Part shown: positions 301 through 63,806 of the stretch, in pieces | How positions within the stretch are numbered: position 1 is the first letter of the stretch | Layout of the letters: the number at the start of each line of letters is the position of its first letter | Assembly (NCBI GenBank): GCA_017443465.1 | Contig: JAFRXO010000073.1 | Location: 1-64,000 of the forward strand | Source: Bacteroidales bacterium | GTDB taxonomy: Bacteria; Bacteroidota; Bacteroidia; Bacteroidales; UBA932 | DNA length: 64,000 bases | Direction of reading: 5' to 3' | Program-made: the position numbers and the translations under genes | The notes under the pieces: generated by a model | What the model was told of the DNA's origin: nothing | Database searches by the model: none | Seen by the model: only the letters and a program-made list of their open reading frames with translations

Positions 301-1657
301 TTGTATAGAATGACACCGTGCGGCGGATTGCACGGGTACAGACTGGGCAGAAATCCTCGCATTCGTTGATTTTCATCCTGCATTCCTGTACAGGGCGGTA
401 AACACCTTTAGAAAGATATCCGCCCCCTTCATAGACGCCGAGCTTTCCGTTAAGCCTTTTCCGTGTCTCCTCCGGAAGTGTATTCCAGATTTTCCTGACA
501 TCCCGGGTTTTCTCTATGCTGTCCGGGGGAGTCGGGACCGGAGTGCCTTCCGGAAGCATGTCCGCCCATTTTGAGGCGAAGTCAGCCAGAGTTGTCAGGT
601 TGGGCTCCCAGGGCTCTTTTTCAGGGACATACATAGGATCATATCCGTCGTCGTAGTAATATTCGTCTCCCAGTCCGGCGAAGGAATGCCCGAATTCGTG
701 GACCAGCACCTTGGGGAAGGTGGGATGGTCGGCGGAGCATGTGAGGATGGAATTGTAAATCCCGCCTCCTCCATAGACAGCGGTATTGGACAGGACGAGG
801 ATATGCTCGAACGGGACCCCGGCCAGGGCATCATATACTGCCTTCATGCTGCCTGCAGTGAGGTATCTCGCCGAATAGAATGTGTCGAAATGGCATTTGA
901 GCAGGGTGTTTTTCCATATGCCTTCGTGCGGTATGCTCACCCCGGATTCTTTCGACACGGCTGCGACGGCCACAATGTTGAAATTCCCTTTCAATGTGGT
1001 GAAAGGCTCATGTGCGGTAAGGGCTTCCACCGCCCTTGCAGCGTCTGAGAAGAATTTGGCAGTGTCCTGGGCCGCATATCCATCGCCGACTATGGCAAGG
1101 TCGATGCATTCGGAAGGCTCTCCGTTCTTGAGGATATACCTATGGGTGAAGCCGTTATCCGGTACCGGACGGATGATGATATCCGCCGGGTCTATTGGGT
1201 GTGTAAGGGTGGTTGTGACATTGCCCCTGATGTCATATAAGGACACCCTGATATTTATTTTCCTTCGGGGAAAGGGGACCTGGAAGCATTCCTCGAAAGC
1301 CTTATCGGTGAGGGTGGCTTCCTCCTGAGAGAGCCATTCCTGGAAAAGTGTAGAGAAGGAGTTGACGTAGAGTACTTTCCCGGTTTCCGGGTCAAGGACT
1401 TCCAGTCTTCCGTTCCCGTCCAGGCACACAGTGTCGAGAGAGTGTCTCCTGCCTGCCCATATGCCTCCGGAAAGGGCTTCGCAGAAGTGTATCTGCTGCC
1501 TCTTGGCATTCCCCGCAAACACGTAGTCCAGCCTCAATGTCTTGTTTTCGAAGTCTTTGTCAAAGCCAATGACGCCTTTTTCGGAATCCTGGGCCGCGGC
1601 TCCTATGGCGGAGACGGCCAGTATGATAATCGGGAGGAGTGTTTTCCGGATGTCCAT
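296..1657 (-). CDS. Secreted M64 family (IgA peptidase-like) metallopeptidase
   Basis: A 453-residue exported zinc peptidase. Residues 1-22 form a signal peptide ending in AAAQ. A beta-rich N-terminal domain precedes the catalytic domain, which begins near IDLAIVGDGY (185-194). The zinc site is HEFGHSFAGLGDE at 320-332, with H320, E321 and H324 as the HExxH core and D331 as the likely third ligand, as in peptidase family M64. Four cysteines in the C-terminal 40 residues could form disulfides. The start ATG at 1657 is preceded by CAT. A weak TAnnTTTA box is at 687-694 relative to position 1000 onward (1687-1694, minus strand). The gene converges on the rRNA fragment and overlaps its terminator. 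The natural substrate is unknown; Bacteroidota carry many M64 paralogues. Confidence 0.88.
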   Translation of the reverse strand: MDIRKTLLPIIILAVSAIGAAAQDSEKGVIGFDKDFENKTLRLDYVFAGNAKRQQIHFCEALSGGIWAGRRHSLDTVCLDGNGRLEVLDPETGKVLYVNSFSTLFQEWLSQEEATLTDKAFEECFQVPFPRRKINIRVSLYDIRGNVTTTLTHPIDPADIIIRPVPDNGFTHRYILKNGEPSECIDLAIVGDGYAAQDTAKFFSDAARAVEALTAHEPFTTLKGNFNIVAVAAVSKESGVSIPHEGIWKNTLLKCHFDTFYSARYLTAGSMKAVYDALAGVPFEHILVLSNTAVYGGGGIYNSILTCSADHPTFPKVLVHEFGHSFAGLGDEYYYDDGYDPMYVPEKEPWEPNLTTLADFASKWADMLPEGTPVPTPPDSIEKTRDVRKIWNTLPEETRKRLNGKLGVYEGGGYLSKGVYRPVQECRMKINECEDFCPVCTRAIRRTVSFYTK

Positions 1658-1750
1658 ATGAATAGTCTTTAGTCTGAACCCATTCGTAAAGATAGGTATT
1701 TTCCCTGAAAGTTACTGTCGTGCAGAATGGGCCGCTCTGTCATAGATTAT

Positions 1751-1781
1751 TTTGAAAATAGGAACAATTCTAATACATTTG
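1751..1781 (+). promoter_or_regulatory. Promoter of the GH-A lipoprotein gene
   Basis: A -33 box TTTG at 1751-1754 and a -7 box TACATTTG at 1774-1781 are separated by exactly 19 bp, a full match to the Bacteroidota consensus. Transcription should start near 1787, giving a leader of roughly 57 nt. Confidence 0.8.
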
Positions 1782-1843
1782 GGAAGCGGCATCAGAACAG
1801 AAGTCCGCAATCAGCAGTTATCGATCTTTAAGGCATTATCTTT

Positions 1844-3277: not shown

Positions 3278-3278
3278 C

Positions 3279-3315: not shown

Positions 3316-3340
3316 CTGCCAGACTATAACCTCTTTCAAG

Positions 3341-5533: not shown

Positions 5534-7027
5534 TTATTTCCGGAAATACTTCCCGACTACGGGCAGTTCCGAAAGCGGGAGGTCGCGGCGCACTATTAGG
5601 GCGCAGAACGCGAGGATCAGAAGGGTGTTGATGCATATGGCCGGGGCGACTCCGAGATGCGCGTTCGACCACAGGATCCCGGCGAACAACACCGCGGCGG
5701 CGAACACATATATGGCCATATCCTTAATAGGATAGTCGATCGGATAGTACTTCTGTCCCACGAAATAGGAGAGCAGCATGGAAATGCCATAGCCTGCGAA
5801 TCCGCCCCAGGCGCATGCCATGTAACCGTATTTCGGGACGAAGATTATGTTGATGACTACCAACGCCAGGCAGCCGATGCCCGAGAAAATGGCGCCCCAT
5901 ATTGTCCTGTCAGTCAGTTTGTACCAGAAACTGAGGTTGAAATACACCCCCATCATCATCTCCGCCGCCATCACTATCGGGACCACGCGGAGACCATCCC
6001 AGTAATCCTTGCTGATGATATAGCGGAGGACATTCATGTAACCCATCACGCATATGAACGCCAGCAGGGTGAAAATCACGAAATATTTCATCCCTTTCGC
6101 ATATGTCTCCTTGCTATCCTTTTCCCTCGAACTGCCGAAGACGAAAGGTTCATATGCATACCGGAAAGCCTGGGTGATCAGAGCCATGATCATGGCGATT
6201 TTCACGGCGGAGCCATATATGCCCAGCTGGATGTTGGTGTCCTCTCCTGTGTAGATTTTCGGGAACAGGATCTTGTCTGCAGTCTGGTTCAGGTTTCCCG
6301 CAATTCCAAGCACCAGGATGGGCCAGCTGTAGGAGAGCATCCGTTTGCACAGATCCCTGTCGAAACCATTTCCCAGGCCTTTTATCTCTTTAGTCAAGAA
6401 GAATGTTATGACAGCGGTGCAGAACAGGTTGATATAGAAGATGTAACCTACGCCGACTTCTGGATTGTAAATTTTTCCCCACAGCGCGGGATTGCCTTTG
6501 TACAGGGCAGGGAGAAGGACGAAGAAGACCAGGTTGAGGATTATGCTCATGAATATGAACAGGAGCTTCAGGGCCGCGAACTTTATAGGTCGCTTCTGGT
6601 ACCGGAGATAGGAGAACAGGATGGCCTGGAAGGCATCCAGGGCTACGACAACAGCCATCACCCAGATGTAGGACGGGTGGTCATTATAGCCCATCCCCGT
6701 TGAAACCGGGCCTATGAATGCAAGTACAAGGGCGACGAAAAGCAGGGATGTGGTGCCGACCATCCTGAGTACAGTCGAATAGACCAGTTTCGGGTCTTCT
6801 CCATCCTTGTTGGCAAACCTGAAAAATGTGGTCTCCATCCCGTAGGTCAAGATGACAAAAGCGAGACCTGTGTAGGCGTAGATATTGGTATTAATCCCCA
6901 AAGCTCCGCTGGAAGCGGGGAAAATATATGTGTAGGCGACACCGAGGAGGTAATTCAGGAACCTCCCGATAATACTGCTCAGCCCGTATATGGCCGTATC
7001 CTTGGCCAGCGACTTGAAATTGGCCAT
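5534..7027 (-). CDS. Polysaccharide/lipid-linked oligosaccharide flippase, MOP superfamily
   Basis: A 497-residue integral membrane protein with about 14 predicted helices and no signal peptide. The N terminus (KDTAIYGLSSIIGRFLNYLLG) is typical of Wzx-like polysaccharide transporters of the MOP superfamily, which move lipid-linked sugars across the inner membrane. Its start ATG lies 10 nt behind the GH95 stop, so the two are cotranscribed. It is not surrounded by glycosyltransferases, which leaves its cargo unknown; the upstream galE supplies UDP-galactose. Confidence 0.82.
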   Translation of the reverse strand: MANFKSLAKDTAIYGLSSIIGRFLNYLLGVAYTYIFPASSGALGINTNIYAYTGLAFVILTYGMETTFFRFANKDGEDPKLVYSTVLRMVGTTSLLFVALVLAFIGPVSTGMGYNDHPSYIWVMAVVVALDAFQAILFSYLRYQKRPIKFAALKLLFIFMSIILNLVFFVLLPALYKGNPALWGKIYNPEVGVGYIFYINLFCTAVITFFLTKEIKGLGNGFDRDLCKRMLSYSWPILVLGIAGNLNQTADKILFPKIYTGEDTNIQLGIYGSAVKIAMIMALITQAFRYAYEPFVFGSSREKDSKETYAKGMKYFVIFTLLAFICVMGYMNVLRYIISKDYWDGLRVVPIVMAAEMMMGVYFNLSFWYKLTDRTIWGAIFSGIGCLALVVINIIFVPKYGYMACAWGGFAGYGISMLLSYFVGQKYYPIDYPIKDMAIYVFAAAVLFAGILWSNAHLGVAPAICINTLLILAFCALIVRRDLPLSELPVVGKYFRK

Positions 7028-7037
7028 ATGATGTCTT

Positions 7038-16354: not shown

Positions 16355-16367
16355 GGTGTATTGTTGG

Positions 16368-22116: not shown

Positions 22117-22139
22117 ATGCTTTGTGCTGAAAGTGGAGA

Positions 22140-22177
22140 CAAACTTACTGAAAAAACCGGAATAATCAGTAAGTTTG
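22140..22177. promoter_or_regulatory. Mirror-image divergent promoters for GH105 and GH106
   Basis: Perfect 11-bp inverted arms (22140-22150 and 22167-22177) with a 16-bp spacer. Each arm contains TAAGTTTG, a TAnnTTTG -7 box, pointing outward: leftward to GH105 and rightward to GH106. Leaders would be about 15-20 nt. The symmetry could also be a regulator site covering both promoters. A CATATG precedes the GH106 start. Confidence 0.65.
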
Positions 22178-22197
22178 CCTAAATACTGATTACACAT

Positions 22198-25100
22198 ATG
22201 CGCACCAGAACTATCTTACCAGCCGTTTTCATCATTTTCGCGTCTATGCTTCAGGCATATGCACAAGTCGCCATATGCCCGTCCCCGGAGGAGGTCTATC
22301 GCAGCTTCTCGCAGCTGGATGCCGAGGCATTCCTGTCTCCGGAGAAACTGTACTATCCCGAAACCTGGTTCCACTGGGTCGGGGGTAATGTTTCGGAGGA
22401 GGGGATATTGGCAGACCTGGAGGCCATGGATGCCGCCGGGCTTTCGGGCCTGCAGTGGTTCCACGGGGATTTCGGGTGGCTGATGCCCGGGATCGACAAG
22501 CCCCTCAAGGCTTTTACCCCGGAGTGGAACCGCCTTCTGGGAGTCATGGGACGGAAGGCCAGGGAACTTGGTCTGAGACTCTCAGTGCAGACATGCCCGG
22601 GATGGGCGATGGCCGGCGGACCGTGGATAGAACCTAAGGATGCCATGAGGACTATAGTCTGGACGAGGACCGATGTAAAGGGAGGCAAAGTTGAGGCGGA
22701 CCTGCCTCTCGCAGGAGAGGCCGCCACTTCATGGAGGGACTATCAGGACATATGCGTGCTGGCTTTCCCCACTCCTGATGGCGACACTGGGAAATATCTG
22801 GAAGTCAGTGATGTACATGGCGACGGAGATTTCGACTGGGCTGCATGTCTGGGTGGCTCTCTGTCCAAGCCTCTGTCTCTTCCGGGAGGATCGGTCCACA
22901 CCATTTCTTTCAAGACGGACGGGATGGTCAGGACATTGGTGCTGCCCAATGTGGATTCCTACAGCCATTATTACGGATACAAGCCTGACATACATGTGAC
23001 TCTCACTGCCGTCCTTCCCGGAGGAAGCAAGGAAAGGATACTCGACCTGGATGTCCCTAAGGCCAACTGGCAGGACCGCGGCCGTCTCGAACTGGCCTGC
23101 GACGAGGCTCCGGGAGCCCTTTCATATGAATTGTCTGTCCGGAACGCACATAACATGGCCCTGGGATATGTCCGCTTCCTGTCCGCAGCGCGGAAGAATA
23201 ACTGGCAGGGGGAGGCAGGCTGGTCACTCATTTCGGTCGAGAGGAGCCAGGAGCACACCAGGCAGAGCCTTGCCGCGTTCGTGAAGAGGGGTGATGTGAT
23301 GGATATCAGTTCCATGATGGATGCCGGAGGACATCTGATCTGGTCTTCCCCCGGGCCGGGGGACTGGACAGTCCTCAGGGTAGGCCATGTGAACACCGGG
23401 AGGAAGAATTCTCCGGCACCGCCGGAAGCTACGGGCTGGGAATGCAACAAATTCGACCCGAGGGGAACCGACATCCAGTTCTCCAATTATGTTGGGAGGA
23501 TATGCAGCGGCCCGCTGGAGGGGCTTGCCAACGGAATGCTCATGGACAGTTGGGAGTGCATGACCCAGATGTGGACCGACGGGATCGAGGAGGAGTTCCT
23601 GCGCCGGAACGGATATGCCCTCAGGCCTTGGATTCCGGCCCTGCTGGGCTACACTGTCGCCGACCAGGAGACTACGAGCCGGTTCCTGGTCGACTGGAGG
23701 CGCTTCGTGGATGCCCTTTATTGTGAAAACTTCTTCAAGCGGATGACCGACCTGGCCCATTCCCAGGGACTCGACGTGCAGTTCGAGACTGCCCAGGGTG
23801 ACGTAATCCCCGGAGACATAATGGAGTACCACAAATATGCCGACATCCCTATGTGCGAATTCTGGCAGCCGCTGGGGGAGGGCACTGTGGCCGATGTGCA
23901 GTTCAAGCCTGTCAAGCCAACCGCTTCGGCGGCCCACGTATATGGGAAGACCCGTGTCGCAGCTGAGGCGCTCACCAGTTTCAACCTGACGTGGGATGAG
24001 CACTGGAGCGACCTGAAGGAGATAGTCAACTTCAACCTTTGCGAGGGAGCGACCCACGCGGTTTTCCACACATTTACTCATAATCCCTCGGTAGGCGGAA
24101 AGGCTCCGGGCATATGTTTCAATGAGATAGGCACTCCTTTCCTCAGGGAACAGACGTGGTGGAAGCATATGAAGAGCTTCACTTCGTTCATCGCGCGGTC
24201 GACATATATGCTCGAGAGGGGCAGGATGGTGTCGGACGTGCTGTGGTATCTCGGGGACGAAGTAGACCATGTGCCTGACCAGAGGGCTCCGTTCCCGGCG
24301 GGTTTCAGATATGATTACTGCAATCCGGACGTGCTCCTTCACAGGCTAAGCGTCCGGGACGGACTGCTTGTCACTCCCGAAGGACAGGAGTACAAGGTGC
24401 TATGGATTCCCGGGAACGAGAGGATGCTTCCCGAGACCGTGGAGAAACTCCGCGAGCTGGTGTCGCAGGGAGCTGTAGTGGTAGGGAATCCGCCGCTTGC
24501 TCCTGCTACCCTTAGGGCAGGGGCGGAAGGCCGGTTCAAGAAGGCTGTCAAGGCTCTCTGGAAAGGGAACGGCCGCGGTGTCAGGAAGATAGGCAAGGGG
24601 AAGCTGGCGGCAGGGATGAGCCTGGACGAAGCCTTGAAGACCTTCGGGATCGCACCGGATGTGGTTGCTCCGTCGGGACTGATGTGGCTCCACCGCAATG
24701 TCGATGGGGCTGACTGGTATATGGTAGCCCCGGAGCCGGGCAGGGATTTCCATGGAGACGTAAGTTTCCGGAGCACCGGGAATGCGGAGTTCTGGAATCC
24801 GACCGACGGCAGCCGGTACAGCGTTCCTTTCAGGACTGAGGGCGGAAGGTGCAGGATCCATCTGGATCTCTGCCGTTCGCAGAACGCTTTCATCGTTTTC
24901 CGTCGCGACGGCGGTTCTCCGGCACCGGAGATGCCTTCAACCACGTCCGTAAAAGCCTTGGACAGGCCCTGGACCCTTTCGTTCCCGGAAGGATGGGGCG
25001 CTCCAGGGCAGTTCCTGACATCCGAACTTAAGCCGTTGAAGGATATGGACTTCGGGGAAGAAGGCCGTGCCTTCTCCGGTACCGTAGCTTATTCAACTAC

Positions 25101-25422: not shown

Positions 25423-26838
25423 TCAGAAGTTGAAGTAGTTCTTGGCGTTGCGATAGCTGATGTCTCCGACCATCTTCTTCAGGAACGGCATTTCCTCTGA
25501 CGGGAGCTTGCCGTCTTCGATGTCGCGGCCGATCACGTCGCAGAGGATGCGGCGGAAATACTCGTGACGGGGATAGCTGAGGAATGAACGGGAGTCGGTA
25601 AGCATTCCCACGAAGCGGCTCAGGAGGCCGTTGGCGGAAAGGGCGTTGATCTGCTTGCGCATGCCGTCTTCCTGATCGAGGAACCACCAGCCGGAACCGA
25701 ACTGCATCTTTCCGGGGAAGGAGCCGTCGTTGAAGTTGTAAGCCATCGTGATGAGAACCTCCATGTCCTTGGGATTCAGGCAGTAGAGGATGGTCTTGGT
25801 GAGCTTGCCTTCACGGGCGAGGGAGTCGAGGAACCTGTTACCGTCCTTGGCAACCGGCATGTCGTGGATGGAGTCGTAACCGGTGTCCGGTCCGAGAGCC
25901 TTGAACATGCGGGTGTTGTTGTTGCGGATGGCACCGACATGGAACTGCTGTGCCCAGCCGGCCTCAGCGTCCATGACAGCGAAGTCGTGGAGGGTAGCGC
26001 TGCGGAATTTCTCGATTTCCTCTGCATCGGGCTGCTTGCCGGCGAGGACCTTCGCGAATATGCGCTCGATCTCTGATTCGGTGTAGGGAGCGGCGTGGAA
26101 AGCCTCCAGACCGTGGTCGGAGAGCTTCGAACCCATTGCCTCGAAGAACTCGTGACGGCGCTTCAGGGCGTCGAGAAGGGTAGCATATGACTTGATTTCG
26201 ATGCCTGCTGCCTCGGAGAGTTTCTTCAGGTACTCATTGTAGGCTGTCGGGTTCTCGATAGCCATGGCCTTGTCGGGACGCCAGGCGGGGAGGATCTTGA
26301 CGCCGAAGGGATTCTCGGCGATCATCTTGTGCCAGCGGAGGTCGTCTGCAGGGTCGTCGGTGGTGCAGACGGTCTCGACGTTGAAGCGCTTGATAAGGGC
26401 CTGTCCGCGGAACTCCTCGGTAGCGAGTTTCTCATTGCACTCATCGAAGATTTCACGTGCGGTGTCGGGATTCAGCTGCTTGTGGATTCCGAATACCCTT
26501 GCCAGCTCCAGGTGTGACCAGTGGTAGAGGGGATTACGCATGGTGTAAGGCATTGTCTCTGCCCATTTCTGGAAGATCTCCCAGGATGACCTGCGGCCTC
26601 CGGTTATGTATTCCTCGCTTACTCCGTTGCCCCTCATTGCGCGCCATTTGTAATGGTCGCCGGCCTTGCCGTCAGTCAGCCAGAGCTCGGTGATGTCCTT
26701 GAACTGGACGTTCTCGGCTATGAGCTGCGGAGAGAGGTGGCAGTGGTAGTCGATGATGGGCATCGCCTCGGCGGCGCCATGGTAGAGCTCCCTGGCAGCA
26801 TCGGTCGAGAGCATGAAATTTTCATTGATGAATGGCAT
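25423..26838 (-). CDS. uxaC: Glucuronate/galacturonate isomerase
   Basis: A 471-residue cytoplasmic enzyme converting D-glucuronate to D-fructuronate and D-galacturonate to D-tagaturonate. It has full family length and the UxaC landmarks IIDYHCHLSPQ (metal-binding histidines, near 29-39), TTDDPADDL, and GSGWWFLDQEDGMRKQI near the C terminus. Its ATG is preceded by CAT. It is divergent from exuT, with a LacI-type operator between them, so both respond to the same signal. UxaE (58892) handles tagaturonate. Confidence 0.95.
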   Translation of the reverse strand: MPFINENFMLSTDAARELYHGAAEAMPIIDYHCHLSPQLIAENVQFKDITELWLTDGKAGDHYKWRAMRGNGVSEEYITGGRRSSWEIFQKWAETMPYTMRNPLYHWSHLELARVFGIHKQLNPDTAREIFDECNEKLATEEFRGQALIKRFNVETVCTTDDPADDLRWHKMIAENPFGVKILPAWRPDKAMAIENPTAYNEYLKKLSEAAGIEIKSYATLLDALKRRHEFFEAMGSKLSDHGLEAFHAAPYTESEIERIFAKVLAGKQPDAEEIEKFRSATLHDFAVMDAEAGWAQQFHVGAIRNNNTRMFKALGPDTGYDSIHDMPVAKDGNRFLDSLAREGKLTKTILYCLNPKDMEVLITMAYNFNDGSFPGKMQFGSGWWFLDQEDGMRKQINALSANGLLSRFVGMLTDSRSFLSYPRHEYFRRILCDVIGRDIEDGKLPSEEMPFLKKMVGDISYRNAKNYFNF

Positions 26839-26857
26839 ATGTGTTAAAAATTATTGT

Positions 26858-28394: not shown

Positions 28395-28418
28395 TCTATA
28401 AGCCTAAAACACAGACAT

Positions 28419-30132: not shown

Positions 30133-30137
30133 GAGAT

Positions 30138-32528: not shown

Positions 32529-32564
32529 ACAGCCTCAGGGCGGCATTTTAACCGCATATCCGTG

Positions 32565-34193: not shown

Positions 34194-34199
34194 CCACAT

Positions 34200-36602
34200 A
34201 TGAAAAGATTCCTAGTTATCCTGGCGGCAGCCACGATGTCACTGTTCCCACTCACCGTGGCAGGGCAGAACATGCTTTCCCTGTCTTTCGGGAAGGGAGG
34301 CAAGTTCAACATTCCGGGAAACACCTGGATTGAATCCAAGACTCCCTGCCTTCTCGAGATAACCATGGAGGGAGACAGGATTAGCGAGATCGCCGTCTAT
34401 CCCAAGGATGCCTCGACGAAGGAAGTTGAGCTGATAACCAACAAACCGCTCCATATGGCCGACAACCGTGTCACTACCATATGGGATGACGAGACTGGCC
34501 AGGAAAGGCTGATAGTCCGTCTCCCGGGCGGGGAGAATCCGGTGGAGAGGTTCAAGATCCAGGACGGCCCGATTACCAGCGACGAGAAGTTTTTCAGCGA
34601 GGTCCTGAACCTGGACTATCCAGGCCTGGAAGACGTCAAGAAGGCCGTTGCGGCGAAGGACTGGGCCGCGGCCAGGACTGCATATGTGAAATATCTCAAG
34701 ACCCGCAAGACCCCGATCTGGTTCTTTGACTGGAGAGACTTTGACAAGGCTTCTTCAAGGGATGCATCGTACGACAGGACAGCGGCAGACAAAATCGCAT
34801 CCAACCTTCTGGAAAGCTGCCTGGTGCCCTACCAGTACAAGAACCATGTCAACTGGTCCATCAACCCGACCGAACCCTATTACGTGGAGTGGACCTGGCA
34901 GCTGAGCCGCCACGGCTTCTGGGGCACCCTCGGGAAGGCCTACTGGGCCACCGGTGACGAGAAGTACGCCAAGGCATTCGTCAGGCAGCTTCGCGGCTGG
35001 ATCATCGACAATCCTCTTCCCGATTATGCCGCGAACGACCAGTACTCCCGCTGGAGGACCATAGAAACCGGCATCAGGACACTTGGCAGCTGGCCGAACG
35101 CCTTCTTCCGTTTCCTGGGTTCCCCGTCCTTCGACGACGAATCTATCGTCATGATGGTCAAGTCTTTCTACGAGCATGGCGTCCATCTGGAGACTTTCCC
35201 GTCACGTACCGGCAACTGGCTTACCCATGAGATGAACGGTCTCTACCACACGGCCGTGATCTTCCCCGAATTCAAAGATTCTCCCAGGTGGGAGGCTTTT
35301 TCCGCGAACAAACTCTATGATGAGGAAAAGATCCAGATCTATCCTGACGGAGCCCAGATCGAGCTGACTCCCCATTATCATGGAGTCACCCTCTGGAACC
35401 TTCTTGGAATCTATCCCGTAGCCAAGATGAACGGGAAGGAACTTCCGGCCGAGTACATCCCCAATCTGGAGAGGGCATATGAGTACTATGTCAAGATCCG
35501 TTTCCCGAACGGCCGCTGCCCGGCCCTGAACGATGCCGACTGGGATGAGAATGCCGATGCGAAACTGAAAGACGGCCTTTCCTACTTCCCTGACCGCAAG
35601 GATTTCCTGTATGCCATGACCGGCGGGACCGAAGGCACCAAGCCTGCTTTCACCTCGGTCTGGATGCCATGGGCCGGATGGTACAACATGCGTTCCGGCT
35701 TCGATCCCCAGGCTCTCCATGCCCATTTCGAGGTCGGCCCCTTCTCTGCCGGCCACTCCCATGAAGACAAGCTGTCTTTGACACTTATGGCATATGGGGA
35801 CATGCTGATGTCCGAGGGAGGGAACTATCCTTATGACGTGTCCCAGTGGCGCAGATATGTGCTTTCCCCGCGTGCCCACAATATTTCCAAGGTTGACGGA
35901 AAGGAGCAGAACCGCGGTGCACTGCGCAGCAACGACCTGATCCGCTACTCCCGCAAACCCATGACCAACAGGTGGATCAGCAATGACAAGTTCGATTTCG
36001 GCGAAGGCTGGTACGACGAAGGTTTCGGCCCGAAGAACGACTCGACAGTTACTCAGTACCGTGCACTGGTCTTCCTGAAAGACAAGTGCTGGCTGCTCTT
36101 CGACATATTCACTCCCAAGGACAAGGCCGTCCACAAATACGAATCCACCTTCCATCTGGATTCCCCGGACGGCGGCAGGATAGCCGGACTCGGTCCCGCG
36201 GTAATGGGCAAGAATCCCGGGCACGCCACCCTGGCCATGGTACCTCTCCATCAGGATGGCCTCGATGTGACCATTGTGAAAGGACAGGATGAGCCTCAAG
36301 AGGTTCAGGGATGGGTACATCGGGTAACCCACAGCTATTCAGTCGATGCGGTGGCCACTCCGGTCTTCATGCGTGAGGCTGCAGGACAGGTAGTGGAGCC
36401 CTACCTTCTCTGGCCCGTGAAGGCCGGGGAGGAGTGCCCGGTCGCTTCAGTCTCATCGGCAGGCGGAGGGACTTACACCGTCAACTTCAAGGACGGTTCC
36501 GTGATGACCGTCAAACTCAAGGTCTCCGGAAACAGCCTTGGTAAGCTTTCCTATTCGATAAAGGGAGGAAAGGACGGTTCCGTTTCAGCAAAAGTACTTT
36601 AA
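34200..36602 (+). CDS. Heparinase II/III-like polysaccharide lyase, copy 2
   Basis: An 800-residue exported paralogue; signal peptide MKRFLVILAAATMSLFPLTVAGQ. Domain order as in copy 1. Candidate active-site segments are GNWLTHEMNGLYH, TPHYHGVT and AGHSHEDKLSL. It differs from copy 1 at APGY (here TPHY) and FSGW (here FSAG), residues near the presumed cleft, which suggests a different preference. It starts 6 nt after the sialidase stop with CATATG at the start, and is cotranscribed with copy 3. Confidence 0.8.
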   Translation: MKRFLVILAAATMSLFPLTVAGQNMLSLSFGKGGKFNIPGNTWIESKTPCLLEITMEGDRISEIAVYPKDASTKEVELITNKPLHMADNRVTTIWDDETGQERLIVRLPGGENPVERFKIQDGPITSDEKFFSEVLNLDYPGLEDVKKAVAAKDWAAARTAYVKYLKTRKTPIWFFDWRDFDKASSRDASYDRTAADKIASNLLESCLVPYQYKNHVNWSINPTEPYYVEWTWQLSRHGFWGTLGKAYWATGDEKYAKAFVRQLRGWIIDNPLPDYAANDQYSRWRTIETGIRTLGSWPNAFFRFLGSPSFDDESIVMMVKSFYEHGVHLETFPSRTGNWLTHEMNGLYHTAVIFPEFKDSPRWEAFSANKLYDEEKIQIYPDGAQIELTPHYHGVTLWNLLGIYPVAKMNGKELPAEYIPNLERAYEYYVKIRFPNGRCPALNDADWDENADAKLKDGLSYFPDRKDFLYAMTGGTEGTKPAFTSVWMPWAGWYNMRSGFDPQALHAHFEVGPFSAGHSHEDKLSLTLMAYGDMLMSEGGNYPYDVSQWRRYVLSPRAHNISKVDGKEQNRGALRSNDLIRYSRKPMTNRWISNDKFDFGEGWYDEGFGPKNDSTVTQYRALVFLKDKCWLLFDIFTPKDKAVHKYESTFHLDSPDGGRIAGLGPAVMGKNPGHATLAMVPLHQDGLDVTIVKGQDEPQEVQGWVHRVTHSYSVDAVATPVFMREAAGQVVEPYLLWPVKAGEECPVASVSSAGGGTYTVNFKDGSVMTVKLKVSGNSLGKLSYSIKGGKDGSVSAKVL

Positions 36603-36615
36603 TCAAGAACAGCAT

Positions 36616-39039
36616 ATGAAAAGATTCTTAGTCATTCTCTCTGTCGCCGCGATGTCTGCATTCACGCTGACCGCGGCCGGGCAGGACACTCTTTCACTAT
36701 CTTTCTGCTCCGGCGGAAAGGCAAACCTCAGGGGGGGAACCTGGATTGAGGCGAAAACCCCGTTCGACCTCAAGGTGGTCATGGACGGTGACCAGGTCAG
36801 TGAACTTACAGTGTTCCCGAAGGGAGCATCGAACCAGGTCGAATTCGTTACCAACAGGCCATGGCATATGGCAAACAACCATGTGACGACGATCTGGGAC
36901 GACCAGACCGGGACGGAGCGTATCATAGTCCGCGTGCCCAAGGGAAAGATCGTCTCCAAGGACAGTTTCAAGATCCAGGACGGTCCGATAACCAGTGACG
37001 AGAAGTTCTTCAGCGAGGTGCTGAACCTGGACTATCCAGGCCTGGAGGACGTAAAGAAGGCCGTTGCCGCCAAGGATTGGCTTGGAGCAAGGACCGCATA
37101 TGTCAAATACATCAAGACCCGTGAAACCCCAAGGTGGTTCTTCGACTGGAAGGATTTCGGGAAAGGAAAGGAGCAGGCGGAGAGCAGGACCGACCAGGAC
37201 GGCAGGGTCTATCCGGCCAACATCGAGGTGGCCGACAGGACGGCTGGCAACTATCTGACCAGCTGCAGCGTACCCTATCAGTTCGGCAGCCATGTCAACT
37301 GGTCGATCAATCCGACCCCGCTGGTGTACAACGAGTGGACCTGGCAGCTCAGCCGGCATGCATGGTGGGAGACACTAGGCTCTACCTACTGGGCTACCAA
37401 GGATGAGAAATATGCCAAGGCATTCGTTAGCCAGATGCGCGGTTGGGTCATTGACAATCCGCTCCCGGACTATGCCGCCAATGACGCTTTCTCCCGCTGG
37501 AGGACCATCGAGACCGGGATCAGGACCCTCGGACACTGGCCGGAGGCCTTCTTCCGCTTCCTGCCTTCCCCGTCCTTTGACGACGAGTCCATCCTCATGA
37601 TGGTCAAGTCCTTCTACGAGCATGGAGTGCACCTTTCGGCCTTCCCGTCGAAGAGAGGCAACTGGCTTACGATGGAGATGAACGGTCTCTACCATGTCGC
37701 CGTGCTGTTCCCGGAATTCAAGGATTCTCCTGAGTGGGAGAAACAATCCTCCGAGACCCTTTACAAAGAGGAGAACGTCCAGGTCTATCCCGACGGCGCC
37801 CAGTTCGAGCTTGCCCCGGGTTACCATGGTGTCAGCCTCAACAGCATACTCGGTCCGTGGAGGCTGGCAAGACTTAACGGCAAGACCCTCCCGGGGGACT
37901 ATGTGAAGAACATAGAGAAGATGTATTCATATTTTATGAATATCCGCATGCCTGATGGGATGATGCCGTCGCTGAATGATTCGGGCTGGGGTCGTGCCGA
38001 CTCGAAACTGCGTGAGGGGGCAGGCTTTTTCCCTGAGAGGACGGACCTGCTCTATGTCGCGTCTGACGGAAGTGAAGGCACGAAGCCTTCGTTCACTTCC
38101 GTATGGATGCCCTGGGCCGGCTGGTATGTGATGCGTTCCGGATGGGAGCGCGATGCGAAGTACGCCCATTTCGAGGTCGGACCCTATTCCGCCGGACATT
38201 CCCACGAGGACAAGCTGTCGCTTATCCTTTCAGCATATGGCGACAGGATCCTGACCGAAGGCGGAACATATGCATATGATGTGTCCCAGTGGCGTACATA
38301 TGCCCTTTCCGCCCGCGCCCATAACCTTACCCGCGTTGACGGGATGGACCAGAACAGGCGCAGTATCGCGAATAAGGACGGGGTCCGCATAGTAAGCGAG
38401 CCGCTGGCGAACCGCTGGAAGACAAACCCGAAGTTCGATTTCGGCGAGGGCTGGTACAATGAGGGATTCGGCCCGAAGAATGATTCCACCGTGACCCAGT
38501 ACCGTGCCCTGGTCTTCCTGAAGGACCGCTGCTGGCTGCTCTTCGATGTGTTCTCTCCTGCCGACGATGCTACCCACACCTATGAGACATCCTTCCACCT
38601 GAATGCTCCGGAGGCCGCCATGGACGAGAAGCTCCAGGCAGTGACCGGCGTCAAAGACGGGTCTGCAGTGCTTTCCATCGTACCGCTGAGAAAGGGAACA
38701 AGTGTGCAGGTCATTACTGGCCAGGAGGTTCCTGAAGTTCAGGGCTGGGTGCATGACGAATCTTGCGAGACATATGAGGACCGCCCGGTCGCGACCCCGA
38801 TATTCAGACGGGAAGCAAAGGGCCAGTGGGTTGAGCCTTACCTGCTCTATCCGCTCAAGGCCGGTGAGGAGAGCCCCGTTGCCTCGGTCGCTTCTGCGGG
38901 CGAGGGAACTTACGCCGTCAGCTTCAAGGATGGTTCCGTGATGACCGTGAAGTTGAAAGTCTCCGGAGGCAGCCTGCAGAAACTCTCCTACTCCATCAAG
39001 GGCGGGAAAGACGGTTCAGTTTCCGCAAAGGTCCTGTAG
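36616..39039 (+). CDS. Heparinase II/III-like polysaccharide lyase, copy 3
   Basis: An 807-residue exported paralogue, closest to copy 2: signal peptide MKRFLVILSVAAMSAFTLTAAGQ and near-identical segments around DGPITSDEKFFSEVLNLDYP. It has a 12-residue insertion after FDWKDFGKGKEQ (about 180-200) that the others lack, at the edge of the toroid. Active-site segments are GNWLTMEMNG, APGYHGVS and AGHSHEDKLSL. It ends the 12-kb exuT operon; palindromic element B follows 19 nt later. Confidence 0.8.
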   Translation: MKRFLVILSVAAMSAFTLTAAGQDTLSLSFCSGGKANLRGGTWIEAKTPFDLKVVMDGDQVSELTVFPKGASNQVEFVTNRPWHMANNHVTTIWDDQTGTERIIVRVPKGKIVSKDSFKIQDGPITSDEKFFSEVLNLDYPGLEDVKKAVAAKDWLGARTAYVKYIKTRETPRWFFDWKDFGKGKEQAESRTDQDGRVYPANIEVADRTAGNYLTSCSVPYQFGSHVNWSINPTPLVYNEWTWQLSRHAWWETLGSTYWATKDEKYAKAFVSQMRGWVIDNPLPDYAANDAFSRWRTIETGIRTLGHWPEAFFRFLPSPSFDDESILMMVKSFYEHGVHLSAFPSKRGNWLTMEMNGLYHVAVLFPEFKDSPEWEKQSSETLYKEENVQVYPDGAQFELAPGYHGVSLNSILGPWRLARLNGKTLPGDYVKNIEKMYSYFMNIRMPDGMMPSLNDSGWGRADSKLREGAGFFPERTDLLYVASDGSEGTKPSFTSVWMPWAGWYVMRSGWERDAKYAHFEVGPYSAGHSHEDKLSLILSAYGDRILTEGGTYAYDVSQWRTYALSARAHNLTRVDGMDQNRRSIANKDGVRIVSEPLANRWKTNPKFDFGEGWYNEGFGPKNDSTVTQYRALVFLKDRCWLLFDVFSPADDATHTYETSFHLNAPEAAMDEKLQAVTGVKDGSAVLSIVPLRKGTSVQVITGQEVPEVQGWVHDESCETYEDRPVATPIFRREAKGQWVEPYLLYPLKAGEESPVASVASAGEGTYAVSFKDGSVMTVKLKVSGGSLQKLSYSIKGGKDGSVSAKVL

Positions 39040-39191: not shown

Positions 39192-40610
39192 TTATGCTCC
39201 GTGGAAGCGGTAGGTCTTTTCGATGTCGGCGGTGAGCCTTGTGAACAGTTCCTCCTGCAGGGAATCGGCGACCTCCAGGGATTTGGCCATCATCCTGTCT
39301 GAGAACCTCTGGAGCATTTCCCTCGCTGCGATAGGCCTTGAGATGTACATAGCAAGGTACTCTTCCTCCATCTCCTTCTGCCTCTGGTCGTTCTCGGCCT
39401 CGAGGTCTGCGAACGCCTTCTTGACTACCGGAGCATATGCATTGTAGTCGGTCATTGCGAGCACGCTGACCTTGCGGAACTTCCAGTACGCCGAATTCGC
39501 GGACGACTCTTTCCCTCCAACCAGCCATGGCTTTGCATATGAACTGACTCCCTGGTACAGGGGCAGGAAGACGCTCAGGTCCGCCATTCCCTCAGACATA
39601 TAGTTTACACACCCGATCTCTTTCGGGAGCCACGGGCGTATCTGGAGGATATGGGTGTTAATCGTGCGGAAAATCGACACCGGACGATAAGGCTCCTTTG
39701 GATTGGAGTGGAGATAGGGGTCGTGTGAAGTCCCGTCATAATGGAAACGGAAGACATCCCTTACGTCGCTCAGGGTTATGGGCCTGTCGGCTTTCTGGAA
39801 GACGGGGAAGTCATTGACTTTCACATTGGTCTTGACAGAGGGGGTAAGGAGTTTCTGGATTCCCCAGACCCGCGGGTAGTTGTAGGTCTTGTCGTTCTCG
39901 CTTTCCAGGCTGTAGGCCTCATGGAAGTCGAAATCTCCCTTGGCCGGGTCGTAGAGCCCGTTCTGTACTGCGAATTCAATCAGGTCCTTGGATGCCAGAT
40001 AGTTCCGCTTGTCTTTCGGATTGTATTCACGGTAGCGGCTCTGGTTGCCGGATACGAAATAGACATCCTCGGGAAGCCTGCGGGCCAGCCACCTGTGTCC
40101 GCCGGCATTCTCCAGGTACCAGAGTTCATCCGCATCCATGAAAGCTATCCCGAAGCCTTCGGCGCTGCCGTGCTTTTCGATGAGCGAGCCGAGCCTCTTC
40201 ACGCCCTCGCGGGCGGATGTTACATATGGCAGGACTATATCATATACGCAGTTCTCTCCAAGGCCAGCGGGTACATATGGATCTGTCGCGAGCACCTTTT
40301 CGCTGGAGAATATGGTCTCCGTGGCGCTCATTCCAACACCTGCGGAGTTGAAGCCGGCTTCGCCCCAGTGTCCCGGGAGTCCGGTGCGTCCGACAGCCGA
40401 ATATCCCAGCCTCTTGGAGGGGAGGTCGCACCTGAAGGGACTGTCAATGGCCTTGAACTCTTTCGGACCGTTGTCGCTGTCCTTGTAGATGGCCAGGTTC
40501 ACTGCGTTCTTCGACGTGGAGTCATCGCTCCTGGCGTAGATCCTCGATCCGTCCGCGGTCATCGCGGTCCCTACGGCGAGGGTCGTGCAGGCTTCGTTGT
40601 TATGCTTCAT
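39192..40610 (-). CDS. C69 family dipeptidase
   Basis: A 472-residue N-terminal-nucleophile hydrolase of peptidase family C69 (PepD). The nucleophile is Cys8 in NNEACTTLAVG, which would be exposed after removal of the first seven residues. YARSDDSTSKNAVN and SPFRCDLPSKR are family segments. No typical signal peptide is present, so it should be cytoplasmic or released after self-cleavage. It follows the serine palmitoyltransferase gene by 20 nt and is probably cotranscribed with it. Confidence 0.87.
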   Translation of the reverse strand: MKHNNEACTTLAVGTAMTADGSRIYARSDDSTSKNAVNLAIYKDSDNGPKEFKAIDSPFRCDLPSKRLGYSAVGRTGLPGHWGEAGFNSAGVGMSATETIFSSEKVLATDPYVPAGLGENCVYDIVLPYVTSAREGVKRLGSLIEKHGSAEGFGIAFMDADELWYLENAGGHRWLARRLPEDVYFVSGNQSRYREYNPKDKRNYLASKDLIEFAVQNGLYDPAKGDFDFHEAYSLESENDKTYNYPRVWGIQKLLTPSVKTNVKVNDFPVFQKADRPITLSDVRDVFRFHYDGTSHDPYLHSNPKEPYRPVSIFRTINTHILQIRPWLPKEIGCVNYMSEGMADLSVFLPLYQGVSSYAKPWLVGGKESSANSAYWKFRKVSVLAMTDYNAYAPVVKKAFADLEAENDQRQKEMEEEYLAMYISRPIAAREMLQRFSDRMMAKSLEVADSLQEELFTRLTADIEKTYRFHGA

Positions 40611-40630
40611 ATGATGTGGTTATCAGTTGG

Positions 40631-45070: not shown

Positions 45071-45089
45071 TCATAACCTGGGAGTGCAT

Positions 45090-54750: not shown

Positions 54751-57700
54751 ATGCAAACGAAGAAATTCAACTTCTGGAACAGGATAGTGGCAGGCGCAGT
54801 CTTCTTGATTTCCGCCGTGACTTACCTGTCAACGATAGAGCCGACCGCATCATTCTGGGACTGCGGCGAATTCATAGCCTCATCCTACAAGCTGGAGGTC
54901 GGTCACCCGCCCGGAAACCCGACATTCCAGCTCATAGCCAGGGTGTTCACCATGTTCGGCGACAACATGCACGCTGCCGTGGCAGTGAATGCCATGAGCG
55001 CGCTATGTTCCGCGCTTACGATATTCTTCCTTTACCTGACCATCGTTTTCTTCCTCAAGAGGATGATCAGGCCGCGGGAAGACGGCACCTGGTCTACCGG
55101 AGACAGCATCGCGATTTTCGGGAGTGCGGCCGTAGGGTCCCTGGTATATTGTTTCTCCGACACTTTCTGGTTCTCGGCCGTCGAAGCCGAGGTGTACGCC
55201 ATGTCATCCCTCTTCACCGCCGTGGTGTTCTGGGCCATGACGAAGTGGTACGAACAGGCTGACACCCCATATGCCAACAGGTGGATAGTATTCATATGCT
55301 TCATGATGGGCCTTTCCATCGGAGTGCACCTGCTTAACCTCCTGACCATCCCCGCCCTGGTCTTCATGTTCTATTTCAAGAAGAGGGAGGAGGGGACTTA
55401 TTCCTTCGGCGAGTACATCAAGATTCTCCTCGTTTCGGGAGTGATCCTCGGCATACTCAATTTCATCCTGGTGCCATGGCTGCCCAAGGTCGCCGCCTGG
55501 TCTGACCTGTTCTTCGTGAATGTACTCGGTCTTCCGTACAATTCCGGAGCCGCATTCTTCATGATAGCCCTCCTGGTCCTGTGCTTCGTGGCCATCTTCC
55601 AGTCCCTGAAGAAGAACAGGGTGGTCCTGAACACAGTCATGCTGTGCTTCACGTCCATAGTGATCGGTTTCTCCATTTTCTCGATAGACATCATCCGTTC
55701 CTGCGTCAAGACCCCGACCAACGAGTACCAGCCGGACAATGCCTTTACCCTCGTGAGGTACCTTTCCCGCGAGCAGTACGGCAAGACCCCTCTTCTCTAC
55801 GGCCAGTATTTCGACGCTCCATATGATATCAAGACCGGAAAGTACTGGGCGCCCCTCAACGGGAAGTACCAGCATGTGAGCGCTCCCTCCGAGGCGGTTT
55901 ACAAGGCATCCGGAAAGATGCTCTTCCCGCGTATGTGGAGCGATGACCCGACCGGACGCTACGAGGAGTTCTACGAAGGGTATATGAAGGGCAAGGGACA
56001 GGCAGTGGAAGGCGCAAAGCACAAGAAGCCGTCATTCTTCACGAACATATACTATTTCCTGGATTACCAGTTGAACTGGATGTACTGGAGGTATTTCATG
56101 TGGAACTTCGTGGGACGGCAGAACGACATCGCGAGTCCGACTCCCGGTGAACTCTTCTACGGAAACTGGGAGAGCGGAATCAAGTTCATAGACAATGCCC
56201 GTCTCGGGGACCAGGAACTGGCTCCCGCACCGCTGAAGGACAACACGGGAAAGAACCATTATTTCTTCCTTCCGCTGCTCCTGGGTCTCATCGGTCTGTT
56301 CTTCCAGTTCGACAGGGACCGCCGCGGATGCTGGGTTGTTTTCCTGCTGTTCCTCTTGACCGGAATCGCCATAGTGATCTACCTGAACCAGCCTCCGTAT
56401 CAGGTGAGGGAGAGGGACTATGCATATGCAGGCTCATTCTATGCCTTCTCCATATGGGTTGGATTCGCCGTTGCGGCGCTTTACAGCCTCATCGGGAATG
56501 CACTCAAAGGGAAATACGGCGCCGTCAGCGCCGCAGCGGTGACTGTCATATGCCTGCTCGTTCCCGCACGAATGGCTGCCGAGAACTGGGATGACCACGA
56601 CCGCAGCAACCGCAGCACCGCCGTGGAAATGGCCAGGAACTACCTGAATTCAGTAGGGGAGAACGGCATACTCATCACCCACGGAGACAACGATACTTTC
56701 CCGCTCTGGTACGCCCAGGAGGTGGAGAATGTCAGGACTGACGTCCGCATCGTAAACACATCCCTCCTCGGGACGGACTGGCACATCGACCAGATGAAAT
56801 ATGCGGTAAACGAGTCCGCACCGCTCGACCTTAAAGTCGGTCCAGAGCAGTATCTCTACGGTACAAATGAATATGTTTACATCAACGACACCAGGAACCA
56901 GGCCTTCCTGCTTTCTGATGTGATGAAGGTCTTCAGGCATCCTGATGCAAAGGTCGTCCTTGCAAGCGGGGAGAAGGTGGACTACATAATGTCCCGCCGT
57001 CTCCTGATACCTGTGAACAAGGAGAATGTACTCAAATGCGGACTAGTGCCCGAGTCCATGATGGACCAGGTCCCGGATACTATAGAGATTGCCATACCGA
57101 AGGACAAGAACCTGGTTACCAAGCCGGAACTGTTCCTCCTGGATCTGCTTTCAAACTATAATTGGGACAGGCCGCTGCATGTCCTGAATTTCGGCGGCGA
57201 CCTAAATGTCGGAATCAAGGATTATCTCTTCTTCAACGGATATTCCGAAGTCTTCGTCCCGATCAGGAACAGGCCGAGCACCACCGATCCCGGCAAGGTT
57301 GACACGGAGAAACTCTACCATCTGATGAAGGATGTCTATTCATGGGACGCCCTCAGCCGGGAAGACTATAATGTGGACTATCAGAACTACTACACCCATC
57401 TGGGAGTGCTGTCCCAGCGCGGCATGTTCGTGAACAGCGCCATCGCTTTCATGGCGGCCGGCCAGAATGACAGGGCCCTGGAGATGCTGGACATGTGCCA
57501 GGAGAAGATCCATCCGAAGAGGTATCCACTGGAGAGCGTATGCATAGGTTTCAGCGGCAATGATTACATGGTCACCCAGATGATATCCCTGTACTACAAA
57601 CTCGGGCAGGATGACAAGGCCCGCAAGCTGGCCGCCGAGTTCAAGGATGACCTCCTGGTTACCTGCAGGTTCTACAAGGATTTCTATCCTTATTCCCAGT

Positions 57701-60154: not shown

Positions 60155-60163
60155 CTCCCGGCA

Positions 60164-62413: not shown

Positions 62414-62474
62414 GGGATATAATTTTTGGACTATAAAAATATGAAAAGATTGCGCAAATGCGGTTAAAAATTGT

Positions 62475-62482
62475 TATTTTTG
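62475..62482 (+). promoter_or_regulatory. -7 box for the histidine phosphatase gene
   Basis: TATTTTTG, 22 nt before the ATG at 62505, in an A+T-rich divergent region shared with GH92. The -33 box is doubtful. Confidence 0.55.
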
Positions 62483-62504
62483 GTGTTAATCACATTTTTA
62501 TCAT

Positions 62505-63806
62505 ATGAAGAAACCGATAACCCTTATCATCCTTGCGCTGCTCTGCGCCGTGGCTTGTGCGGCTCCCAAAACCGACAAGGTGACTTACACTGAAGAGCAA
62601 GTCAAGGCCCTTCTCAAGGAGATGCCAGAGCGTGCATCCAACCTGCATCATTTCTACGAAGTTCCGGCAATCAAGGACACCAAGGCTCCTGCAGGTTATG
62701 AGCCTTTCTATGTCAGCCATTTCGGACGTCACGGATGTCGTTACCACACCAGCTCCAGCCCATATGAGACAGCCCTTGGATATCTGAAGAAACTGGATTC
62801 CCTGGACCAGCTGACCGCTTACGGGAAAGGACTGCTCGAGGCAGTGGAATCCCTGAAATATACCCAGAGGGGAATGGACGGCATGCTTACCCAGAAGGGT
62901 GCGCAGACCCACAGGGGCATAGCCACCAGGCTTGCGGGGCGCTATCCCCAGATATTCAGCCAGAGCGAAAGGAATGACGTCAGGGCATTCTCCTCGACAG
63001 TCCAGCGATGCATAATGAGCATGTCAAACTTCATCCTTGGTCTTGACAAGGCCGCTCCCGGACTGGATATCAGCATGGATACAGGCGCGAGGTACATGGA
63101 TTACATCGCCCACTCGTCCAGCGGCGCTCCAGCCAACAGGGGAGGGCAGATACGCGATTCCATGTTCAAGGCCCTTTTTGATCCGGGCCGTATAAGCAAG
63201 CTTCTCTTCAAGGATCCCAAAGCTCCCGCGAAGATTTTCAAGGACAAGGAGTACAGCTTCTATTATTCAGTTATCAATGCCGGAGACATCGCCCAGTGCC
63301 TCGACACCGAGGTCCCCAATTTCTATTCAGAAATGACCCTGGACGAGATTTACGCCTTCTGGGCCGCAAACGACATAGGGACAGTCAACAATATGGGCCG
63401 CACCAAGGAGAATGGCGGTTACCGTGAAAGGGTTGTCGGTGGTCCCATCCTTAACGACTTCCTGAACAAGGCACAGGACGCTATCGACGGCGGAAAGGTC
63501 TGCGCCGACCTCCGTTTCGGCCACGACTCCGGTATCATGCCTTTCCTCTTCCTAATCAAGCTGAACGGGTTCGAAGAGACCTATTCGTGCGCAGAAGCCC
63601 CGTCGAAGTGGCTCTGCTTCAAGGAGGTCCCGATGGCCGCGAACATCCAGTTCGTGTTCTTCAAGAACAAACAGGGTTCTATCCTGGTCAAGGTACTCCT
63701 CAATGAGTGCGAGCGCACCTTCCCGGCCCTTGAGGCTGTGAATGGCGTCTATTACAAATGGCCTGTGCTGAGAGACTACCTGCAGGCGATAGCTGACGGG
63801 AAATAA
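62505..63806 (+). CDS. Histidine-type phosphatase, MINPP/phytase-like
   Basis: A 433-residue exported protein (MKKPITLIILALLCAVAC, possible lipidated Cys18). The catalytic RHG motif is FGRHGCRYHTSS (about 71-82), and the proton-donor HD is in FGHDSGIMPF (about 345-354). This layout matches histidine acid phosphatases related to MINPP of gut Bacteroidota, which dephosphorylate inositol phosphates. The downstream sugar transporter starts 11 nt later. Confidence 0.86.
   Translation: MKKPITLIILALLCAVACAAPKTDKVTYTEEQVKALLKEMPERASNLHHFYEVPAIKDTKAPAGYEPFYVSHFGRHGCRYHTSSSPYETALGYLKKLDSLDQLTAYGKGLLEAVESLKYTQRGMDGMLTQKGAQTHRGIATRLAGRYPQIFSQSERNDVRAFSSTVQRCIMSMSNFILGLDKAAPGLDISMDTGARYMDYIAHSSSGAPANRGGQIRDSMFKALFDPGRISKLLFKDPKAPAKIFKDKEYSFYYSVINAGDIAQCLDTEVPNFYSEMTLDEIYAFWAANDIGTVNNMGRTKENGGYRERVVGGPILNDFLNKAQDAIDGGKVCADLRFGHDSGIMPFLFLIKLNGFEETYSCAEAPSKWLCFKEVPMAANIQFVFFKNKQGSILVKVLLNECERTFPALEAVNGVYYKWPVLRDYLQAIADGK

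Follow-up and report, generated by a model that had tools for sequence, protein, structure and literature searches.

In the first 64,000 nucleotides of contig JAFRXO010000073.1 from a Bacteroidales genome (GenBank assembly GCA_017443465.1; hereafter the window, 64 kb at 55% GC), the palindrome CATATG is the commonest of all hexamers. An exact scan finds 134 copies, the first at 915 and the last ending at 62766, in agreement with the hand count of about 134 in the original prediction, which had proposed that CATATG is a highly iterated palindrome (HIP) maintained at the DNA level; several example coordinates quoted there are shifted by one position, and 30606 is to be read as 30616. All 134 sites fall within some open reading frame (ORF, mechanically called in all analyses) of at least 300 nt, including 9555, 9685 and 39536, which are intergenic under greedy ORF picking yet lie inside ORFs of the fuller ORF list. 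The sites, and those with individual features, are as follows.

Position scan, no strand: starts of the 134 CATATG palindromes, 915, 1458, 1655, 1866, 2211, 3055, 4448, 5180, 5634, 6051, 6100, 6151, 7025, 7096, 7358, 7403, 7593, 7841, 7990, 8926, 9415, 9555, 9685, 10570, 11443, 11518, 11986, 12551, 14416, 14620, 14626, 14701, 15378, 15607, 15951, 16484, 16688, 16694, 17446, 18402, 18663, 18771, 18857, 19354, 20217, 20390, 20870, 21021, 21825, 22114, 22195, 22256, 22272, 22749, 23123, 24111, 24166, 26184, 26836, 27967, 28237, 28416, 28978, 30250, 30616, 31723, 31756, 31762, 31786, 32065, 32260, 33179, 33927, 34197, 34452, 34478, 34681, 35476, 35791, 36613, 36865, 37097, 38234, 38267, 38273, 38297, 38771, 39434, 39536, 40223, 40274, 40608, 40903, 41427, 43851, 43978, 44280, 44652, 45087, 45378, 45526, 45532, 45972, 46418, 47548, 47645, 49513, 50283, 50749, 50935, 51289, 52009, 52594, 53932, 55268, 55293, 55820, 56423, 56451, 56547, 58501, 58889, 59262, 59493, 59871, 59946, 60247, 60547, 60653, 60720, 60904, 61081, 62502, 62761
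22195..22200, no strand: one CATATG giving the ATG of two divergent ORFs, 20839-22197 (minus strand, GH88-like) and 22198-25419 (plus strand, GH106-like), with no spacer as mechanically called
1655..1660, minus strand: CATATG on the start codon of ORF 296-1657
7025..7030, minus strand: CATATG on the start codon of ORF 5534-7027
26836..26841, minus strand: CATATG on the start codon of ORF 25423-26838 (glucuronate isomerase)
28416..28421, plus strand: CATATG on the start codon of ORF 28419-29441
34197..34202, plus strand: CATATG on the start codon of ORF 34200-36602
36613..36618, plus strand: CATATG on the start codon of ORF 36616-39039
40608..40613, minus strand: CATATG on the start codon of ORF 39192-40610, if this is a real gene (greedy picking preferred an opposite-strand ORF)
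62502..62507, plus strand: CATATG on the start codon of ORF 62505-63806
31756..31767, plus strand: tandem CATATGCATATG in the heparinase-like ORF 30090-32528 (812 amino acids)
38267..38278, plus strand: tandem CATATGCATATG in ORF 36616-39039 (807 amino acids)
56451..56456, plus strand: example site in phase C-ATA-TG, ORF 54751-57831 (phase by arithmetic)

In the window, Markov models of order 2, order 3 and maximal order predict 29.3, 59.7 and 111.7 CATATG sites, respectively. The higher-order expectations are too high because the tetramers and pentamers used are themselves produced by CATATG, and these nulls were dropped as self-contaminated; even with the inflated order-3 null, the ratio of observed to expected sites is 2.2. 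A synonymous-codon shuffle of 40 hand-picked window ORFs gives 19.3 ± 3.7 expected sites against 114 observed (1000 shuffles, maximum 36), or, by phase, 6.0/7.7/5.6 expected against 12/76/26 observed. CATATG is the most extreme hexamer in this shuffle (z 21.6), and the next palindrome, TCCGGA, reaches a z of 5.1.

Synonymous codon choice can create CATATG in three contexts: [ASTP]-Tyr-GNN (phase 1), Ile before Cys or Trp after a codon ending in C (phase 2), and His-Met (phase 0). In 621 kb of the source genome (G000; 2,645,555 bases in 81 contigs, 96% complete), 601/767 [ASTP]-Tyr-GNN contexts use CATATG, and the G after CATAT is required, as NCA-TAT falls to 135/978 where the hexamer cannot be completed. 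Likewise, CATATG is used in 249/419 contexts with Ile before Cys or Trp and in 146/153 His-Met contexts, compared with 1259/11067 and 1739/3609, respectively, where the hexamer is incompletable. The odds ratios for phases 1, 2 and 0 are 22.6, 11.4 and 22.4, verifying the predicted enrichment in all three phases, rather than in one phase only. We compared these values with 80 named relatives (L163-L242), which are loci recovered with a window protein as query from Bacteroidales or Bacteroidia metagenome-assembled genomes, mainly of herbivore-gut origin and including Candidatus Cryptobacteroides faecipullorum (65% protein identity). The pooled relatives give odds ratios of 0.6, 0.7 and 0.9, a slight under-use of the same contexts. 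In a larger sample of G000, CATATG occupies 1540/2066 permissive contexts (pooled odds ratio 16.6), and in a sister genome (G439; about 88% DNA identity to G000, 79% complete) it occupies 392/539 (pooled odds ratio 14). In 93 further samples, each with 10 contexts or more, the median pooled odds ratio is 0.67 and the maximum is 5.1, on 3/15 contexts.

The phase-1 alternatives, which lie one or two changes away from CATATG, are depleted to 0.15–0.29 (CGTAT to 0.62, on 7 cases), and CCTAC and CCTAT, whose conversion requires a transversion, are depleted likewise. As the degree of depletion is broadly similar, transversion words included, no one mutation type, deamination for instance, can explain the pattern. 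There is no extra flank requirement: the window holds 15 copies of GCATATGC against about 20 expected from flank frequencies, and in the whole G000 genome this form accounts for 534/4230 CATATG sites. The longer motif GCATATGC was accordingly rejected, as it shows no preference beyond flank composition. The prediction had also described ATA as a rare codon that is used after C and before TG. ATA is not rare in the window (303 ATA, 628 ATC, 152 ATT); the second half of the statement holds, with C followed by ATA in 401/662 Ile codons before TGG, TGC or TGT and in 1925/17034 elsewhere (G000 sample).

The preference reaches start codons and protein sequence. CAT directly precedes the ATG start of ORFs of at least 450 bases in 62/322 cases in G000, 19/120 in G439 and 9/745 in the 80 named loci; this count uses greedy ORF picking, which may discard real overlapping genes. 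The 153 His-Met dipeptides in G000 are 1.50 times the expected number, against 0.49 times in the relatives, and the observed-to-expected ratios in G000 and the relatives are 1.61 and 1.11 for Ile-Cys, 0.92 and 0.72 for Ile-Trp, and 1.18 and 1.03 for [ASTP]Y[AVDEG]. His-Leu, His-Val and Ile-Phe show no rise in G000 over the relatives, and His-Leu runs in the opposite direction (0.99 vs 1.22).

To place the enrichment among related genomes, we counted CATATG in 790 distinct genomes (G000-G789), comprising 400 of the same genus including G000, 393 drawn from the order, and a first counted set, with overlaps removed. G000 carries 4230 CATATG in 2.65 Mb against 79 of the reversed control word GTATAC. 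Only G000 and G439 exceed one CATATG per kb; G439, with 3353 CATATG in about 2.1 Mb, is the sole similar genome among the 400 of the genus, and no further high-CATATG genome appears among the 393 drawn from the order. The comparison with relatives suggested in the original prediction thus confines the enrichment to two of 790 genomes. In window alignments, G439 shows 88% identity over 9 kb, and G003 and G022, with CATATG totals of 173 and 376, reach about 75% at best. The third rank among the 400 same-genus genomes is held by G227 (2028 CATATG in about 2.8 Mb), which was rejected as a second case: its count reflects codon bias, with NCA-TAT equally common outside the CATATG context and a pooled odds ratio of 1.08. 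A 20-kb sample of G131 (L119) has a pooled odds ratio of 3.4 on 15/32 contexts, and that genome holds 1368 CATATG against 69 GTATAC; it is a possible weak or early case. No other palindromic hexamer is comparably enriched in the 80 named loci (best z 4.9), and in the 17 readable of 20 same-genus samples (the other three consist of N throughout), several of only 5–10 kb, the best z of 4.1 is far below that of CATATG. In G022 (L109-L113), CATG and GATC words are strongly avoided (e.g. CATGCC, 5 vs 52 expected), which suggests restriction pressure. All His-Met pairs of G022 (13/13) are CAT-coded, which we attribute to the same avoidance, since CACATG contains CATG.

The two species share most of their CATATG sites. 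Where G000 and G439 were aligned over 43 kb, CATATG shows a conservation of 0.90 against a mean of 0.57, the top value of 946 hexamers with enough counts, and 73 sites are shared, of 86 and 77. Over 78 kb (15 alignments, 87.7% identity), 128 sites are shared, of 151 and 139. At synonymous positions, where the prediction had called for a conservation check, same-codon agreement in the three contexts is 0.97/0.95/0.96 in the CATATG context and 0.40/0.51/0.76 outside it. Nine in-context discordances are seen; loss at the rate found outside the context would give 127, and gain at the rate found there would give 5. The loss-like ratio is 0.071 (0.032–0.135), corresponding to a roughly 14-fold suppression of losses, and the gain-like ratio is 1.8 (0.8–3.4), so that gains are perhaps raised. 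Taken together, the three phases, the start codons, the protein shifts and the cross-species conservation bear out strongly the claim that codon use does not explain CATATG.

CATATG is also in excess in spacers. Outside all ORFs of at least 300 nt, G000 has 21 sites against 5.9 expected by an order-1 model, G439 has 7 against 1.4, and the relatives have 13 against 15.3 (order-2 expectations 8.3, 1.6 and 19.1, respectively). With a 240-nt mask, the counts are 17 vs 4.7, 5 vs 1.1 and 9 vs 10.5 for the same three samples. A separate count that leaves ORFs open at contig ends unmasked gives 36 vs 8.9, 30 vs 3.7 and 31 vs 23.6. A first spacer count with greedily picked ORFs gave 33 sites vs 6.4 expected, some coding DNA included. 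The 60 nt ahead of long-ORF starts hold no special share of the excess, with 7 sites (0.67 per kb) compared with 29 (0.84 per kb) elsewhere.

The spacing of CATATG is near random. Contigs L034, L161 and L036 were excluded from the neighbour-distance count and retained in the coding-context counts. Gaps of at least 12 bp fit an exponential distribution (Kolmogorov–Smirnov p 0.44), 1-kb counts have a variance-to-mean ratio of 1.13, and 13/1060 inter-site gaps are exactly 6 bp (CATATGCATATG). Permissive contexts are used at 0.73–0.84 with the nearest other site anywhere from <12 bp to 800 bp away. Use is thus not lower near other sites, which argues against a signal needed once per kilobase, as demand for such a signal should relax near existing sites, and speaks against one-site-per-kilobase explanations in general, among them the saturation step in the published model of methyl-directed repair. 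In the window, the four sites from 38234 and the four from 31723 share identical spacings of 33, 6 and 24. The neighbouring ORFs of 812, 800 and 807 amino acids at 30090-39039 (the first, heparinase-like, being the only one scanned) have similar CATATG patterns and look like gene copies, as do the neighbouring ORFs of 687 and 684 amino acids at 14291-18422 (the first, PL8-like, again the only one scanned); the shared patterns of both groups include CATATGCATATG doublets.

Low-site stretches comprise the small contigs L034, L161, L265 and L268, together with a few long gaps. CATATG-free gaps lie at L148:7747-12070 and L261:11384-15481, both with SusC/SusD-type genes (GC 0.46 and 0.54, respectively), and at L151:1548-6213, with thioredoxin-family genes (GC 0.43); a gap in L257 holds GH106 and LVIVD-repeat genes (GC 0.50). 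Our guess is that these stretches are recent imports yet to gain sites, or bin contamination. A simple repeat scan of the examined sequence found no clustered regularly interspaced short palindromic repeat (CRISPR) arrays.

The original prediction had named a methyltransferase, a nucleoid protein or a repair/segregation factor as the possible reader of the site. A methyltransferase reader is not supported by the families searched: PF01555 has no match in G000 (61 genomes searched, G439 not among them), and PF02384, PF02086 and PF00145 have none in G000 or G439. For PF07669 (Eco57I), the two sub-threshold matches in G000 belong to PrmC and, at window 45084-45797, to a TrmN-like protein, and G439 also has one sub-threshold match. 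The MT-A70 profile PF05063 matched nothing anywhere, controls included, so this search is uninformative. Six ORFs of <900 amino acids with the motif [DNS]PP[YFW] occur among 661 ORFs (36% of G000); the five that were scanned, all but L262:17650-18351, include no DNA methyltransferase. Vsr (PF03852) is absent from G000 and G439 and present in 3/8 genomes searched. Several relatives do match the methyltransferase families, and G227 has members of PF02384, PF02086 and PF00145. The segregation factor fares poorly in so far as it implies a spacing-type signal, which the exponential gaps and the absence of falling returns disfavour; a nucleoid protein or a repair factor stays a candidate.

We interpret CATATG, with a probability of roughly 55%, as a highly iterated palindrome distinct from those of cyanobacteria and kept by a local process that reads the exact hexamer, in two closely related species of one Bacteroidales genus. 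Such a process would retain existing sites and would let new ones persist at most positions compatible with the encoded protein, and its local, per-site character is likely. The reader would be a symmetric, probably dimeric protein acting on duplex DNA and handling each site separately. Biased repair may restore mutated sites, or favour new ones, in the general form proposed for cyanobacterial HIPs (PMC4390886) and without GmeC; alternatively, each bound site may give a small additive benefit, with scaled selection of about 2.4–3.1, insensitive to neighbours. The loss and gain ratios share nine events and therefore do not decide between restoration and selection; we lean slightly toward restoration. 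Its full form, a methylation-independent local restoration by a dimeric CATATG reader that is coupled to mismatch or recombination repair, overwrites or protects permissible sites, changes proteins and start codons and arose within one genus, is tentative and, with all its parts, doubtful.

Several observations weigh against the interpretation as a locally read palindrome. No reader gene was found. Where the nearest site is >800 bp away, use drops to about half (30/62 and 8/15; 77 contexts), for which our guess is imports. Spacer enrichment is about 4-fold, compared with 11–23-fold in permissive coding contexts; words one change away from CATATG are undepleted in spacers (ratio 1.06 in G000, 0.93 in G439, 1.09 in the relatives); and under a 150-nt mask, which itself removes most ATG-bearing stretches, G000 has 0 sites vs 2.1 expected (G439 4 vs 0.7, relatives 3 vs 4.7). 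The undepleted one-off words may point to constraint in these regions or to a cause linked with coding or mRNA. Maintenance at the DNA level is likely, if less secure on account of the spacers, where the excess is real but weaker and comes without depletion of one-off words. Finally, the turnover estimate rests on the nine discordant sites, with selection and restoration both near the edges of the intervals.

Additive selection on the binding sites of a nucleoid or other sequence-specific protein, with a similar tiny benefit at each, is possible and, in our judgement, somewhat unlikely. The similar odds ratios in three frames and the broadly uniform phase-1 depletion fit one scaled coefficient, and the cross-species conservation and the absence of an additional flank requirement are in keeping with it; the lack of a spacing preference or falling return, however, makes a role in chromosome architecture or segregation a less natural reading, the spacer effect is weaker, no candidate protein was found, and two-state selection at the observed odds predicts about 17 discordant sites, where 9 are seen. 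We consider it unlikely that a CATATG methyltransferase, orphan or linked to restriction-modification, biases fixation toward the site through methyl-directed repair (the Elhai HIP model). The GmeC ratchet in that model predicts dominance of GCATATGC, far from the share observed, and its saturation near one site per kb would entail lower use close to other sites, which is not seen; four families lack a match in G000, the PF07669 matches there are TrmN-like and PrmC, and the five scanned motif ORFs are negative. On the other hand, the MT-A70 search gives no ruling on that family, the assemblies are 96% (G000) and 79% (G439) complete, and alternate cyanobacterial HIPs accompany a cognate methyltransferase (PMC4390886).

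Preference for CAUAUG in transcripts, through an RNA-binding protein, an RNase, a translation effect or a transcription-coupled process, would make the palindrome incidental. The lower spacer excess, the undepleted one-off words there and a strong start-codon effect adjoining translation signals would agree with such a cause; three reading frames are nonetheless affected alike, the spacer enrichment is 3.6- to 5-fold under the 300-nt mask, where the relatives show 0.85, and is not special just upstream of ORF starts, and a reader of duplex DNA would predict just such a perfect palindrome. We hold this cause to be quite improbable. Molecular drive by biased transformation, with CATATG as a DNA uptake sequence, could account for thousands of copies limited to particular species. 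Known DNA uptake sequences are non-palindromic and tied to competence; a palindromic hexamer is unlike them, the gaps follow an exponential and use is not relaxed where sites are dense, and this explanation is very improbable. Codon or codon-pair preference or amino-acid composition accounts for G227 and is refuted for G000, where three frames and the start codons converge on one hexamer and the shuffle yields 19 sites vs 114.

As the trait is absent from 398/400 counted same-genus species, comparative analysis should be able to trace how the responsible gene was gained. In addition, with 75% of permissive coding contexts in use and measurable effects on the proteome, the case shows that a hexamer can prevail over codon choice and over amino acids under weak constraint. 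A literature search of partial scope returned no earlier account of CATATG over-representation in Bacteroidales.

Among known systems, NdeI/FauNDI restriction-modification recognises the same word. Type II restriction-modification sites come with a cognate methyltransferase and are usually avoided; CATATG, in contrast, is enriched, and the tested methyltransferase families are without a match. Vsr very-short-patch repair, which acts on deaminated 5-methylcytosine and raises one word at the expense of neighbouring words, offers the likeness of a repair process favouring one word and differs in that neither G000 nor G439 matches Vsr. DNA uptake sequences, like CATATG, are short words found genome-wide; CATATG differs in being palindromic and in its near-random spacing, which is not more even than random. 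In Pasteurellaceae and Neisseriaceae, uptake sequences are attributed to molecular drive, and their spacing is described as significantly even (citing Karlin), but less even than compaction needs according to the author (PMC1939737).

How one palindrome comes to fill a genome has been an open question since HIP1, and the parallel with HIP1 drawn in the original prediction holds as an analogy, given 4230 sites in 2.65 Mb and the shuffle result of 114 vs 19.3. HIP1 (GCGATCGC, cyanobacteria) is likewise a palindrome present in thousands of copies, at 300–2700 per million in the density figures of PMC4390886; CATATG, at 1600 per million, lies within this range, though it has 6 bases, not 8. CATATG is not HIP1 proper, as both the word and the phylum differ, its relatives being Bacteroidales or Bacteroidia; it is an AT-rich hexamer in two sampled species, with no recognised methyltransferase and no extended consensus. 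It also departs from the Elhai model of a GmeC-capable core whose GC-flanked form is dominant, as GCATATGC makes up only the 534 of 4230 sites given above. Alternate HIPs, for instance GGCGCC in Calothrix PCC 7103, reach about 500–2500 per million (Elhai 2015): as described there, these contain GC and have a cognate methyltransferase, whereas CATATG has no GC and no methyltransferase was found, and both are sporadic, lineage-limited and hyper-abundant short palindromes. With the extreme over-representation typical of HIPs, at hundreds to thousands of copies per Mb, the CATATG set is a lineage-limited HIP-like system outside the cyanobacteria.

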